This document shows, one piece after another, positions 1,811 to 46,606 of a stretch of DNA of 64,000 bases. Each line of letters opens with the position of its first letter. Position 1 is the stretch's first letter. Both the position numbers and the translations under genes were made by a program. This DNA is from Dictyoglomus sp. NZ13-RE01. Lineage in GTDB: Bacteria > Dictyoglomota > Dictyoglomia > Dictyoglomales > Dictyoglomaceae. The stretch is taken from NCBI GenBank assembly GCA_002878375.1, contig NIRF01000003.1, positions 82,792 through 146,791 of the forward strand, written 5' to 3'. Below the pieces are notes generated by a model. It did not search any database. It was given only the letters and a program-made list of their open reading frames with translations, and was not told where the DNA came from.

Positions 1811-3129
1811 TCAACCTTTCCAAAAAAGTAATCACGAGCCTCACCTGCAAGATATAAGGAACCTGTTATTAAGATAAGATCTTCAGGTGAGGCTTTTTTA
1901 TATACATCTTCAAAGGCTGAAGGAAAGTCCTTATAAGTAAATACAGGCTTTTCTCTGTTATTCAGTAAACCAGCAAGTTCATCCGCATCTCTTGTCCTAC
2001 TACTGGGAAGAGGTAGGAAATGAAAACTATGAACTAATGGTTCTAAGGTATTTAAAAAGGCATAAGCATCCTTATCCTTCATCATTCCACATATTAGGAA
2101 TAATCTTTTATATCTAACATAATCTTCTAAGGTTTCTCTTAAAGCTATTGCGGAGGATAGGTTATGAGCACCATCTATAATAACCAATGGATCTTTTTGA
2201 ACAACTTCAAACCTTCCATGCCACTCTACTTCTGAAAAACCCTTTTTATAATCCTCCAATGAGATATACCATTTCAGATTTAGGTTTAAGGCAGAAAAAG
2301 CACATACCGCATTAACCAATTGATGTTCTCCTAATAGAGGAATGCTAAAAATATAATCTGTATTATCCTTAGATATTGTAAAAATTTGCTCTTTTAAATT
2401 TGAAACTACTTTTTTCCAAGAATAAACCTCATCTATTTTTATATATGGTGCTCTTTTTAATAGAGCCTGTTTTTTAATCTCTTCCCAGGCAGAAGGATCT
2501 TGAGGGGCACAAATTAGAGGCACATTATATTTTATTATTCCTGCTTTTTCTCTTGCTATTTCTGGAAGTGTATTCCCTAATATATGCATATGATCAAATC
2601 CTATTGGAGTTATTATAGATACTAATGGAATGATGGTATTTGTAGCATCCAATCTCCCTCCCAATCCTACCTCTATGACTACAAAATCTAATTTTTTTCT
2701 ATAAAAATAAAGAAAGGCGGATGCCGTTAAAACCTCAAAGAATGTTGGTGCACCATAGACTGGATGTTTGCTCGCAAAATCCACATACTCCTTCACTTCT
2801 TCCATTAAACCTGTAAATTCTTCTTTACTAATTAATCCTTCATGAGTAACAATTCTCTCTCTAATACTTTGTAAATGAGGGGATGTGTATAAACCCACTT
2901 TATATCCTGCAGACTTTAGAATAGAAAAAATCATTGCGGATGTTGAGCCCTTTCCTTTTGTCCCTGCAATATGAAAGGCTTTTAATTCTTTTTGGGGATT
3001 CCCCATAATATCCAAAAGATATCTCATTCTCTCAAGATAAAACTTTTTCTCATCATAATTTAGTTTATCAAGCTTTCTCTCATAATTTATAAGCCCATAT
3101 ATATAATTAAGAGCATTAACATAATCCAT
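1807..3129 (-). CDS. folC: Folylpolyglutamate synthase / dihydrofolate synthase
   Basis: ATP-dependent Mur-ligase-family enzyme that adds glutamate to (tetrahydro)folates, and in many bacteria also makes dihydrofolate from dihydropteroate. The P-loop is GTKGKGSTSAM near residue 57, followed by the family motif TSPHL. The central-domain stretch EVGLGGRLDATN (about residues 153-164) and DGAHN (about 319) are FolC signatures. At 440 residues it is full length. The ATG follows a strong GGAGGAGG. It has its own extended -10 promoter at 3165-3173 and stands alone between two plus-strand units. Confidence 0.93.
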   Translation of the reverse strand: MDYVNALNYIYGLINYERKLDKLNYDEKKFYLERMRYLLDIMGNPQKELKAFHIAGTKGKGSTSAMIFSILKSAGYKVGLYTSPHLQSIRERIVTHEGLISKEEFTGLMEEVKEYVDFASKHPVYGAPTFFEVLTASAFLYFYRKKLDFVVIEVGLGGRLDATNTIIPLVSIITPIGFDHMHILGNTLPEIAREKAGIIKYNVPLICAPQDPSAWEEIKKQALLKRAPYIKIDEVYSWKKVVSNLKEQIFTISKDNTDYIFSIPLLGEHQLVNAVCAFSALNLNLKWYISLEDYKKGFSEVEWHGRFEVVQKDPLVIIDGAHNLSSAIALRETLEDYVRYKRLFLICGMMKDKDAYAFLNTLEPLVHSFHFLPLPSSRTRDADELAGLLNNREKPVFTYKDFPSAFEDVYKKASPEDLILITGSLYLAGEARDYFFGKVD

Positions 3130-40509: not shown

Positions 40510-41365
40510 CTTCTTCTAACACCTCCTTAAGAGCTCTTATAGCTACCTCCAACTGAGAATCATCTGGCTCCTTTGTTGTTAAATACTGCATCCATAACCC
40601 AGGTAAAATTACAGCTCTCCAAAATTTCGAATGATAATGTTTCGATCCTAGTCTTATTATCTCATAGGATAGACTAAAAATTAAGGGTATTAATAAAACT
40701 CTTGAGAAAATCCTCTCTATAAAGCCTTGTTTACCTAAAAAAGCATAAATAACTACGCTAATTATCATTACTACAAGTAAGAAGGATGTACCACATCTTG
40801 GATGAAATCTTGAATATTTTCTACAATTCTCAACTGTAAGTTCTTCTCCTGCCTCATAACAGAAAACTGTTTTATGTTCAGCCCCATGGTATTGGAAAAC
40901 TCTTTTTATCTCCTTAATATTAGTGACAAGCACAAGATAAGCAATAAAAATGATAATACGTATAAGTCCTTCAATCAATCTAAGAATTATTTGAGAAGAA
41001 ACGTAACTTTCAATTGGCTTAACGATAATTAATGGTAATACTATAAATAGTGCCACAAAAAGGGCAAAACTAAGAACCAATGCAAAGAAAATTCCCCACC
41101 CACTATCTATTTTCTCCTCTTCAGGAAATGCCACATTTGTAGAATAAGTTAAAGCTTTTATACCCCAAACTAATGAATCCATTAATATTAATAATCCTCT
41201 CAAAAAGGGAATTTTTGCCCATTTCTTAAAGACTGGCTGAAGCTTATACTTGTCGACAACAATCTCTCCCATGGGATTTCTGACTGCAACAGCAAGATTG
41301 ATCCCCTTTCTCATCATTACTCCTTCATACACTGCTTGTCCACCTACATTCTCTTCTCTTTTCAT
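40499..41365 (-). CDS. DUF1385 membrane protein
   Basis: 288 residues beginning with the family motif [15 protein letters not shown]. Several membrane segments follow (about 85-115, 120-150, 195-220), with the conserved [37 protein letters not shown] between helices. The His/Cys residues suggest metal binding. Function unknown; typically found beside rpmE and prfA, as here. ATGA overlap with tdk. Confidence 0.9.
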
Positions 41366-41952
41366 TTTTCATCCCTTCTTAGAACAACATGACATTTTCT
41401 ACAACGAGCCTCATAAGTCTCAAAGGCTCCTACTAAGATTATAGGATCATCATAATAGGCTGGTTTACCATTTACAATCCTTTGAGTCCTACTTGCAAGA
41501 TTACCACATTTCATACAAATAGCATGTAGCTTATCTACATACTCAGCTACCGCAAGAAGATAAGGCATAGGACCAAAAGGTTCTCCTCTAAAATCTTGAT
41601 CTAAACCTGCCACTATTACTCTTTTCCCCTCATCTGCCAACTTTTGGCAAACTTTTACAAGCCCCATATCAAAAAATTGTCCTTCCTCAATAGCAACTAC
41701 CTGTGTATCCTTTTCAACTAATCTTTCAATCTCTGAACTATTAGAAACCAAAATTGCCTCTATTTTTAGACCTGTATGAGAGGTTACATAATCCCTTTCA
41801 TATCTGTTATCTAAGCTATGTTTAAATACTTGGACCTTTTGTTTTGCAATTTGAGCTCTTCTAACCCTTCTTATTAATTCTTCACTCTTTCCACTATACA
41901 TTCCACCACATATAACCTCTATCCACCCTGAGGGATTATTAATATATTCCAT
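41362..41952 (-). CDS. tdk: Thymidine kinase
   Basis: Salvage of thymidine to dTMP. Type II (bacterial/human TK1-like) fold: P-loop [11 protein letters not shown], lasso CMKCG with the second pair CRKCH binding structural zinc, and the catalytic Glu in [11 protein letters not shown]. The ATG at 41952, after AGAAGGTGAAAG, gives 196 residues. An upstream in-frame ATG would extend 93 bases into thyX with no family match. Confidence 0.94.
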
Positions 41953-41956
41953 TCTT

Positions 41957-42613
41957 TCACCTTCTTTCTGGAATACATTTTTTTCCTTCAGGACATGGAC
42001 CTCTAAAACAAGGAGGTCCAGCATCCTCAAAAATAATAGGGGCAACTTTCTTTACCTCTTCTAACATAAGCCATGCCATCTCTCTTATTTCCCATTGAGC
42101 ATTATTACATGTTCTTAGCGTAAAAAAATGCATAAGTTCCCGTGCATTCATAGTAAGAATAATTTTCGTCTCAACAGCCTGTGGTAAAACATACCTTGCA
42201 TCTTCTTTTGGAATTCCCATTTCTATCAACTTTTGGTAGTTTTCAAAAGCAAATTTGATAAATTCTTTATAGAGTTTTTGAGCCTCTTTGTCTTCATTAA
42301 CCAAAGGTGGAGTTATAAATTCATCCTTTAGATTTACATACCTCTGACTCTGTTGAGAATAGGAAGCTATTCTATGCCTAACCAATTGATGGGATGTTAC
42401 TCTGGATATTCCATCTATATAAAAAGTAAAATTAGCATGCTCAAAAATAGATAGATGCTGAAGCTTCTTTGCCTTTTTAAGTAATCTCTCTATCTCAGAA
42501 GAATCTATTTCCTTTTCTAATTCTTCTAAGCTTCCTCTAAAATGACAAAGACGCATCGCCAGAGCACAAACCTTTTCCGGCTCTGGCGTATAGGCTATTA
42601 ATTTTACCCTCAC
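41957..42613 (-). CDS. thyX: Flavin-dependent thymidylate synthase
   Basis: Makes dTMP from dUMP using FAD and methylene-THF. The ThyX motif [13 protein letters not shown] is present (about residues 71-83), with later [14 protein letters not shown] as the second conserved block. 218 residues. GTG start two bases after rpmE, with no strong ribosome site, so it likely depends on coupling. A 9-bp GC-rich hairpin lies inside its first codons (42557-42588). Confidence 0.95.
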
Positions 42614-43246: not shown

Positions 43247-44044
43247 CTATACTCTTCCCCTCCTTTGCAATCTTTGGATTTTTTTAGTTTTGCCTGAGCT
43301 TTCCTCTACCTCAATAATCACCCCTTCCATTTTAAAAAGTCCTTTCTCTGGAACTTCAAAACGTTGAGGAATTTGGAGAAGAAATTTTTTAAGAACAGCT
43401 TCCTTATCCACCCCCAAAATTGAGTCTTCAGCCCCGCACATACCAACATCTGTAATGTAACCTGTTCCCCCCTCCAATATTTTCTCATCTGCAGTTTGCA
43501 CATGAGTATGTGTACCTACAACTGCAGTGACTTTTCCATCTAAGAAATAACCCATCGCTATTTTTTCCGACGTTGCTTCCGCATGCATATCTACCAATAT
43601 TATTTTAGCCTCATCTGCAACTTTTTCAATAATCTCCTCTGCTACTTTGAAAGGACTATCTAATGGCTCCATAAATATCCGTCCCTGTAGATTAATTATA
43701 CAAATTTTTTTGCCAAAATGCGAGAGGGTAATATAACCTCTTCCTGGTACACCCTTTGGATAATTAGCAGGTCTTATTATTCTTTCACAGCTTTCTAAAA
43801 CAGGTATGCCTTCTTTTTTATCCCATATATGATTTCCACTTGTCATAACATCCACTCCTGCCTCCATTATTTCTTTTATTACCTTTTCCGTAATACCAAA
43901 ACCTGCAGCTGAATTTTCTACATTTGCTATCACTAAATCTATATTATACTCTCTTCTAACTTCTGGCAAAAACATTGATAATCCTTTTCTTCCAATACTT
44001 CCTACAATATCTCCTAAAAATAATATCCTTAAATTATCTTGCAT
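43247..44044 (-). CDS. YmdB-type metallophosphoesterase
   Basis: 265 residues matching the TIGR00282/YmdB family. The dinuclear metal site is visible as LGDIVGS (Asp), [21 protein letters not shown] (GNH motif), [10 protein letters not shown] and [12 protein letters not shown]. YmdB hydrolyses cyclic mononucleotides in vitro and affects biofilm and motility decisions in Bacillus. The start overlaps the end of rny by 11 bases. Confidence 0.92.
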
Positions 44045-45542
44045 ATTCTACAGCTCTTGTTTCTCTTATAACTGTTATTTTTATCTGACCAGGATACTCC
44101 ATTTCCTTTTCAATCTTTTTAGCTATCTGATAAGCAAGACGTGTTGCTGTTACATCATCAACACTTTCAGGATTTACCATTACCCTTATTTCTCTTCCAG
44201 CCTGTATAGCATAAGCTTTATCTACACCAGGAAAAGACATAGCAATCTCTTCTAATTTTTCTAATCTCTTTATATAAACTTCAATACTTTCTCTTCTTGC
44301 TCCTGGTCTTACCGCAGATATACTATCTGCTACCTGAATAATAACATCTAAGACACTTGTAGGAGGTACTTCCTCGTGATGAGATGCCACTGCGTGCACA
44401 ATGCTACTATTTTCACCGTACTTTTTCAGAAGTTCAGAGCCTAAAAGTGCATGGGAACCTTCTATTTCATAATCAATAGCTTTCCCAATATCATGTAAAA
44501 GCCCAGCACGCTTTGCAAGATTTACATCAATTCCTAACTCTCCTGCTATAACAGCGGCTAATTTCGCAACTTCTATAGAATGCTGTAATACATTTTGTCC
44601 GTAACTTGTTCTATAGTAAAGCCTTCCCAAGGTCCTAATTAAATCAGGATGCAAATTATGAATTCCTACCTCAAGCATTGCTCTCTCGCCTTCTTCTCTT
44701 ATTCTATTGTCTACTTCCTTCTTTGCTTTATTAACCATTTCTTCAATTCTTGCAGGATGAATTCTTCCGTCCTTGACTAACTTTTCCAGTGCTATTCTTG
44801 CTATTTCTCTTCTTATAGGATCAAAAGATGAAAGCACTACTGCCTCTGGAGTATCGTCAATAATTAAATCCACTCCAGTTAAAGTCTCAAAGGTTCTTAT
44901 ATTCCTTCCCTCTCTACCTATAATTCTTCCTTTCATCTCTTCACTTGGAAGACTCACCACCGAAACTGTAGATTCAATTGTATGTTCAACTGCACACCTC
45001 TGTATAGCCTCACTTAAAATTTCTCTTGCCTTTTTATCCGCCATCTCTTTAAATCTTGCTTCAGCCTCTTTAATTCTTAAAGCAATATCTCTTTGCAGTT
45101 CTTCTTCTAATTTTTGAAGTAAAAGTTCTTTAGCCTCCTCTTTTGTTAATTGAGCTATATTTTGTAGTTCTTCAATCTGTCTCTTTTGCAATTCTTTAGC
45201 TTCATTTAACCTTTCCTCAATCTCCTTTTCCTTCTTTAAAAGAAGCTCTTCCCTCTTCTCAAGATTCTCCTCCCTCTGCAAAATTCTTCTTTCTAAATTT
45301 AAAATTTCATTTCTTCTCTCCCTTAATTCCCTTTCAGTCTCTGTCTTCAATCTATAGATCTCTTCTTTACCTTCAAGAAGAAGGACTTTTTTCTCTTCTT
45401 CAGCTTGAAGACGAGCCTTTTCTAATATCTCTTTTGCCTTTACTTCAGCATTCTCAGAAATTTTCTTTTCTACATACTTTCTAACAAAATAACCAATAGA
45501 GATACCTATTACAAATATTATTGTCGTTATTAAGATAATAAT
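44034..45542 (-). CDS. rny: Ribonuclease Y, apparently started at a non-canonical ATT
   Basis: Membrane-anchored endoribonuclease starting bulk mRNA decay. The first canonical start, TTG 45350, would give 438 residues beginning in the coiled coil. But the frame stays open upstream to 45549 and encodes the family's N-terminal membrane helix ([20 protein letters not shown]) and [11 protein letters not shown] coiled coil, with no ATG, GTG or TTG. A perfect AAAGGAGGTGA lies nine bases before ATT 45542 (an ATA lies at 45548). Using ATT gives about 502 residues, the usual size. KH domain ([11 protein letters not shown]) and HD domain (HDIGKA) are intact. The TAG of ispG overlaps the leader. Confidence 0.88.
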
Positions 45543-45544
45543 TG

Positions 45545-46606
45545 CTATTCACCTCCTTTTTCCAAATTTTCCAACTCTTTCCTTAACTCCTCCAATATCT
45601 TACCCCAAGAACCTTCTTTTATAATCTTACCATATTTAAAAAGAAAAACTCTACTTTTTGTTCCAGCAATGCCCAAATCTGCCTCTTTCGCTTCTCCAGG
45701 GCCATTCACTTCGCAACCCATAACAGCAATTGTAACATTATAAGGATAATCTTTGAACTCTTTTTCTATCATGTTTGCCACCTTTGCTACTGGGAAATTA
45801 CTCCTTGCACACATAGGACAAGCAATTACTCTAATACCCCTTTCCCTTAAATTAAGACTCCTTAAAATTTCATATGCTACATCCACTTCCTTCTCAGGAC
45901 TTGCAGATAACGAAACTCTTATTGTATCACCAATACCCTCATTTAATAGTATACCTAAACCCACTGCAGAACGGATGCTACCTGAAAGTAATGTTCCAGC
46001 CTCTGTAATTCCAATATGTAATGGATAATCGACCTTTTTACTTAACAATCTGTAAGCAGATACAGTAAGAGGTATAGAAGATGATTTAACAGATATTACA
46101 ATATCAAAGAATCCTTCTTCCTCTAATAATTTTACCTCATTTAAGGCGCTTTCCACTAAAGCCTCAGGTGTAATACCTCCATACTTTTTTAAAATATCTG
46201 GACTTAGAGATCCAGAATTACTACCCACCCTAATAGGAACTCCCCTTGCTTTTGCCTCCTTTGCTATTAAAGATATGTACTTAGGATTTTTCAAATTGCC
46301 TGGATTAAGCCTTAATTTATCTACTCCTTGTTCTAAAGCTATCAATGCTAATCTATAGTCAAAGTGTATATCCGCTATTATAGGGATTGGGCTCTTCTTT
46401 TTTATTTTGCCTAAGGAAATAGCAGACTCCTTATCAGGAACACCTATTCTAACAAGTTCGCATCCCCTTTTATATAGCCTATAAATCTGCATTAGGGTTC
46501 TTTTTACATCTGTAGTAGGGGTTTTTGTCATAGATTGAACCCTTATAGGATTATCTCCACCCAAGAAAATATTACCAACTTTGACTACTTTTGTTTTTCT
46601 TCCCAC
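45545..46606 (-). CDS. ispG: 4-hydroxy-3-methylbut-2-en-1-yl diphosphate synthase
   Basis: [4Fe-4S] enzyme of the MEP isoprenoid pathway. TIM-barrel N-terminal part ([30 protein letters not shown]) and a C-terminal Fe-S region with [10 protein letters not shown] and [10 protein letters not shown]. 353 residues. TAATG overlap with rseP. The rseP-ispG order is widespread. Confidence 0.95.

Follow-up and report, generated by a model that had tools for sequence, protein, structure and literature searches.

Three genes lie close together on the minus strand of the stretch of Dictyoglomus sp. NZ13-RE01 DNA that we analysed, hereafter the window (64,000 nucleotides). The middle one is rny, encoding ribonuclease Y (RNase Y), the main RNA-degrading enzyme, which initiates decay; here it belongs to a hot-spring bacterium. 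It is preceded by ispG and followed by a gene that its own sequence and its place suggest to be ymdB. The coordinates are compiled in the table.

Features of the rny locus (window positions)
Feature	Position	Strand	Basis
ispG, upstream of rny	45545..46606	(-)	ORF list; stop TAG 45547-45545, 2 nt before AUU
Extended Shine-Dalgarno sequence AAGGAGGTGA	45549..45558	(-)	10/10 matches to anti-SD complement; identical in all 7 genomes
AUU start codon of rny	45540..45542	(-)	Invariant ATT in 7/7 Dictyoglomaceae, with constant spacing to the SD
rny, ribonuclease Y, 502 aa if begun at ATT 45542	44034..45542	(-)	TIGR03319, PF12072 + KH_1 + HD; frame open to stop
N-terminal membrane helix, 5' of every canonical codon	45482..45539	(-)	Hydropathy maximum 3.1 (window mean); match to PF12072 begins at its position 2
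First in-frame codon of canonical type (TTG), not taken as a start	45348..45350	(-)	TTA or CTT in six relatives
ymdB-like gene, downstream of rny, canonical ATG	43247..44044	(-)	ORF list; overlaps rny end by 11 nt

The rny frame is open from the TGA at 45551-45549 down to the stop at 44034. It contains no ATG, GTG or TTG ahead of the TTG at 45350-45348, which is codon 65 when counted from ATT 45542, and the 64 codons between the two encode the membrane helix and the beginning of the coiled region. A first-pass annotation of this DNA had described the frame in this way, and both our reading and the alignments to PF12072 and TIGR03319 confirmed it. The protein begun at the ATT matches TIGR03319 (RNase_Y) with 727 bits, against a curated equivalog cut-off of 454, over model positions 2-514 of 514, its residue 4 falling on position 2. 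In PF12072 (RNase_Y_N), residue 2 falls on profile position 2. The RNase Y domain set of membrane helix, coiled region, KH and HD is thus present in the rny product, and is complete only with a start at or near ATT 45542.

The sequence preceding this ATT was compared with the complement of the usual 16S rRNA 3' end as the anti-Shine-Dalgarno (anti-SD) reference. Between AAGGAGGTGA (45558-45549) and ATT 45542 lie 6 nt, and 9 nt separate the GGAGG core of this SD from the ATT; the SD reported by the first-pass annotation as nine bases before the ATT is thus correctly placed for the core, but not for the end of AAAGGAGGTGA, which lies at 6 nt. We surveyed the 57 large ORFs of the window for AUU, AUC or AUA starts behind an SD. 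Runs of 10 nt occur at rny and at one other ORF, and rny is the sole ORF in which an SD of at least 7 matches points to one of these codons and no canonical start is supported by an SD. The gene consequently has the layout of the infC type, with a non-canonical codon at the proper distance from the SD (10/10 matches, aligned spacing of 6) and no canonical alternative. The bare pattern AAGGAGGTGANNNNNNATT is not rare by itself, since a reversed control yielded 0-2 occurrences per genome. Its rarity was therefore dropped as an argument for the start, and it is the conserved position that counts as evidence.

We compared rny among seven Dictyoglomaceae genomes from two genera, which include an uncultured Dictyoglomus (L033), a Dictyoglomaceae bacterium (L034) and two single-contig assemblies of 1.86 and 1.96 Mb. 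AAGGAGGTGA-N6-ATT stands at the rny start in all seven, with no canonical codon there. The alignment of related rny starts, which had been proposed as a check on the ATT, thus showed both the codon and the SD to be conserved (7/7), and no family member carries ATG at the ATT position. The seven RNase Y proteins share 30 invariant Ile columns, and only two of these, one being the start ATT, are encoded by a single codon. ATA 45548, the codon after the TGA and the alternative start offered by the first-pass annotation, was rejected, as the corresponding codons in the seven genomes are ATA, AGA, AAA, ACT, ACT, ACA and ATT. At the level of sequence, the comparison places the rny start at the ATT, since no other start-like codon is conserved, and establishes its conservation in the family.

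The infC gene encodes IF3. In Dictyoglomaceae, an ATA behind GGAGGTG stands where IF3 should begin in all five genomes in which infC was found (L107-L111; L109 is G000:C1:341533-342033), and the gene is apparently complete. Given that these five family members start infC with ATA, it is very probable that codons of a type rejected by IF3 serve as starts in these organisms. The likeness to infC, which had also been noticed in the first reading of the window, is therefore borne out within the family itself: in sequence, the layout is the same.

Beyond the family, an rny gene without a canonical start was also found in Moorella mulderi (ATC), Moorella sulfitireducens (ATT) and a related Clostridia MAG (ATA), and in a three-genome phylum (G052) rny starts with AUA in 3/3 genomes, directly 3' of recA. 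The rny genes of the three genomes of this phylum (G052, G060 and G061; L010, L123 and L124) read GAGGTGA-N6-ATA, with an out-of-frame ATG just 5'. In Moorella's phylum (Bacillota), the rny start was read in 154 genomes, a set biased to Moorella-like sequences. Under a strict rule, 90 of them have only AUU, AUC or AUA behind an SD and 7 more probably do, while 41 have only a canonical start, 10 are ambiguous and 6 are unresolved. The resulting total of 97/154 AUU-type starts comprises 66/90 of the most Moorella-like genomes and 31/64 of the less similar ones. These codons sit 5-6 nt after GGAGGTGA, and in the canonical rny genes of the phylum this GGAGGTGA precedes ATG, GTG or TTG by a similar interval. 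Runs of 8-10 SD matches occur in 75/90 of the AUU-type and 29/41 of the canonical genes. The GTG inside GGAGGTGA was rejected as a Bacillota rny start because it is part of the SD and lacks a separate SD in the inspected cases.

In the 143 rny genes whose SD run reaches at least 7, Ile occupies aligned spacings 5 and 6 in 58% and 78% of cases, as compared to 2%, 2%, 8% and 12% at spacings 2, 3, 8 and 9. The Fisher test for this enrichment gives p ~1e-30, a value that is too small since related genomes are not independent. The start codons themselves are biased to ATT (65 ATT, 13 ATC and 12 ATA, against 158, 97 and 143 among the Ile codons found over the 30 positions that follow), with p ~1e-7, which is too small for the same reason. 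Owing to this kinship, the argument rests on comparing positions inside one set of genes and not on the p-values. In the same phylum, infC, the positive control, has AUU, AUC or AUA at the same spacing in 28/29 cases, whereas ymdB (TIGR00282), which is often beside rny and was used as a negative control, has ATG, GTG or TTG in 29/30. In layout, rny thus matches infC and differs from the neighbouring ymdB. The one remaining ymdB (L227, G086) seems to start with ATT (TAGGAGGAGAGAAAC-ATT) and has no canonical codon in frame.

Given that all seven close relatives keep it and that the same kind of start recurs in Bacillota, the reading of AUU 45542, as first suggested, as an infC-kind start at which rny begins is well supported by these comparisons. 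A weak start is not indispensable for the gene, since 41/154 genomes of Moorella's phylum use a canonical codon and Bacillus subtilis uses AUG.

Several features of rny were observed along the way. A sample from a Bacilli/mollicute-like phylum (G366) starts rny mostly with ATG. In mollicute-like genomes (L388, L391-L402), the rny frame reads through one or two in-frame TGA codons, which is expected where TGA codes for Trp. In the Moorella group (L045, ~2840-3000; L068, L052, L132-L141), a conserved leader of ~150 nt with a hairpin and a T-rich run AAGCCGAGTTTCGACTCGGCTTTATTTT directly precedes the SD, and looks like a terminator or an attenuator. An Rfam search of L045, L052, L010 and L001 gave no match at the rny starts, the Moorella-group leader included.

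We consider it likely that rny is translated from AUU 45542, and that this weak start keeps RNase Y low and sensitive to IF3. The perfect 10-nt SD would guide initiation to the AUU and, being extended, would keep the 30S subunit on this weak codon. IF3 rejects starts other than AUG, GUG and UUG, which would make RNase Y synthesis IF3-sensitive, and RNase Y would be made sparingly, with more of it when IF3 is scarce relative to 30S subunits. In Staphylococcus aureus, AUU and AUA starts behind extended SDs yield ~10-30% of AUG (PMC13009471), and repression of non-canonical starts by IF3 has been shown for sigR and infC (PMC5472188). By extension from such cases, the AUU of rny may give a low yield, respond to IF3 and serve a regulatory purpose. 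Control of rny by IF3 would be consistent with the ATA start of Dictyoglomaceae infC. In the genomes with such an rny start, infC opens with AUA or AUU/AUC and is laid out alike, so that IF3 and RNase Y would be expected to co-vary, rising and falling together at low IF3:30S ratios.

An alternative that we regard as unlikely accepts the AUU start but ascribes to it a low, fixed level of RNase Y, or a coupling of termination and reinitiation with ispG, without IF3-dependent regulation. Weak starts lower the yield by themselves (PMC13009471). Coupling draws on the position of the ispG stop (TAA or TAG), which shares one base with the AUU in 5/7 Dictyoglomaceae genomes and lies within 10 nt of it in the remaining two. 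Relative to the AUU, its offset is -5 in one genome, +2 in five and +10 in one; the stop precedes the AUU in the window and follows it in one genome. The overlap in five of the seven genomes could help to fix the third base of the AUU. However, both genomes without overlap (L001 and L004) retain the ATT, so that the overlap does not explain the conservation of the ATT, and a third base fixed purely in this manner was rejected. In other phyla, moreover, the same kind of start follows other genes or a leader, namely recA (L010) and the terminator-like leader in Moorella (L045). Coupling of rny to ispG translation is possible. As for a fixed level, ribosomes in general discriminate through IF3, and some sensitivity is to be expected. 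We therefore favour an IF3-sensitive AUU start over a fixed yield or coupling.

It is very improbable that translation begins at TTG 45350 and that a shorter, soluble protein is the true product, although this codon is the first canonical one in the frame. The corresponding codons in the seven genomes are TTG, TTA, TTA, TTA, TTA, CTT and TTA, the TTG being present in the window genome only, and the first-pass idea of a second, soluble form starting there is not supported. The TTG form lacks the first 63 profile positions of TIGR03319. It also lacks the first 64 of RNase_Y_N, beginning at position 65 of PF12072 with a loss of 66 bits. The membrane helix that it would omit is conserved under coding constraint. 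In the Dictyoglomaceae comparison, third codon positions of the ATT-to-TTG stretch are the most divergent (0.48 per pair, versus 0.33 and 0.24), and the stretch thus behaves as coding sequence. Still more improbable is a programmed frameshift at the ispG end that feeds the rny frame to give a fusion, with the SD as its stimulator. An SD-like sequence just ahead of a stop codon is a feature of known frameshift sites and is found here directly before the stop. On the other hand, the ispG/rny frame relation varies, being one frame at -5 or +10 (two genomes) and the other at +2 (five genomes), and elsewhere rny is not downstream of ispG. The chance that a sequencing or assembly error masks an ATG is negligible: nothing in its favour was found, apart from the window assembly being in 34 contigs, the ATT recurs in each of seven distinct genomes, including the two single-contig ones, and infC has a start of the same kind.

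The AUU start of rny can be set beside several known systems. The closest is infC, which shares with rny the extended SD, the distance of 5-6 nt, the AUU, AUC or AUA codon and conservation in the same genomes; E. coli infC starts with AUU and Streptomyces infC with ATC, as cited in PMC5472188. Autoregulation of infC is demonstrated, whereas the proposed control of rny would act in trans. The E. coli pcnB gene for poly(A) polymerase I is limited by its AUU start (Binns and Masters 2002, as cited in PMC13009471 and PMC9410913) and is, like rny, an RNA-decay gene. The enzyme and the lineage are nevertheless unrelated, so that rny would be a parallel case, and the rny start is conserved over large groups. 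In S. aureus, ribosome profiling identified conserved non-canonical starts behind extended SDs at ccpN (AUA) and cvfC1 (AUU), the same kind of start in different genes (PMC13009471); that report contains no mention of rny, cvfA or ribonuclease Y. Streptomyces sigR has a GTC start that is repressed by IF3 and was overlooked by annotation pipelines (PMC5472188). It differs from rny in its codon, in encoding a sigma factor and in having a longer isoform as well. The rny gene of B. subtilis starts with AUG, its SD is among the strongest, and decay of the rny mRNA provides its autoregulation (PMC10303841). The very strong SD is common to B. subtilis and the Dictyoglomaceae, but control in B. subtilis acts via mRNA cleavage and with a canonical AUG.

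B. subtilis RNase Y also cleaves the infC leader, affecting IF3 synthesis (PMC3997798). A reciprocal circuit is conceivable, in which IF3 would set rny through its AUU, AUC or AUA start and RNase Y would set the fate of infC mRNA, over much of Bacillota and Dictyoglomota. We offer it tentatively, as possible rather than probable, since the loop needs both halves in one organism and the half from RNase Y to infC is known in B. subtilis, whose rny starts with AUG. Such a circuit, if true, would tie translation-initiation capacity to global mRNA decay, in parallel to E. coli pcnB. An AUU-started rny would directly and testably link the level of an initiation factor to global RNA decay.

AUU, AUC or AUA starts are known for few bacterial genes (infC, pcnB, ccpN and cvfC1), most of them from single species. 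Our literature search, covering few subscription journals, found no report of an AUU start for rny. The start is of a known kind, and its distribution at rny is unusually wide. Being retained in Dictyoglomota and frequent among the Bacillota genomes sampled, rny would rank among the most widespread AUU-type cases after infC. Start calling restricted to ATG, GTG and TTG would misplace the gene, either losing the membrane anchor or picking the GTG inside the SD.

Elsewhere in the window (41362-42045 and 41957-42613, minus strand), a TTG-started ORF overlaps thyX. Judged by eye, its start probably lies further in, at an internal ATG, and its product would be a thymidine kinase.
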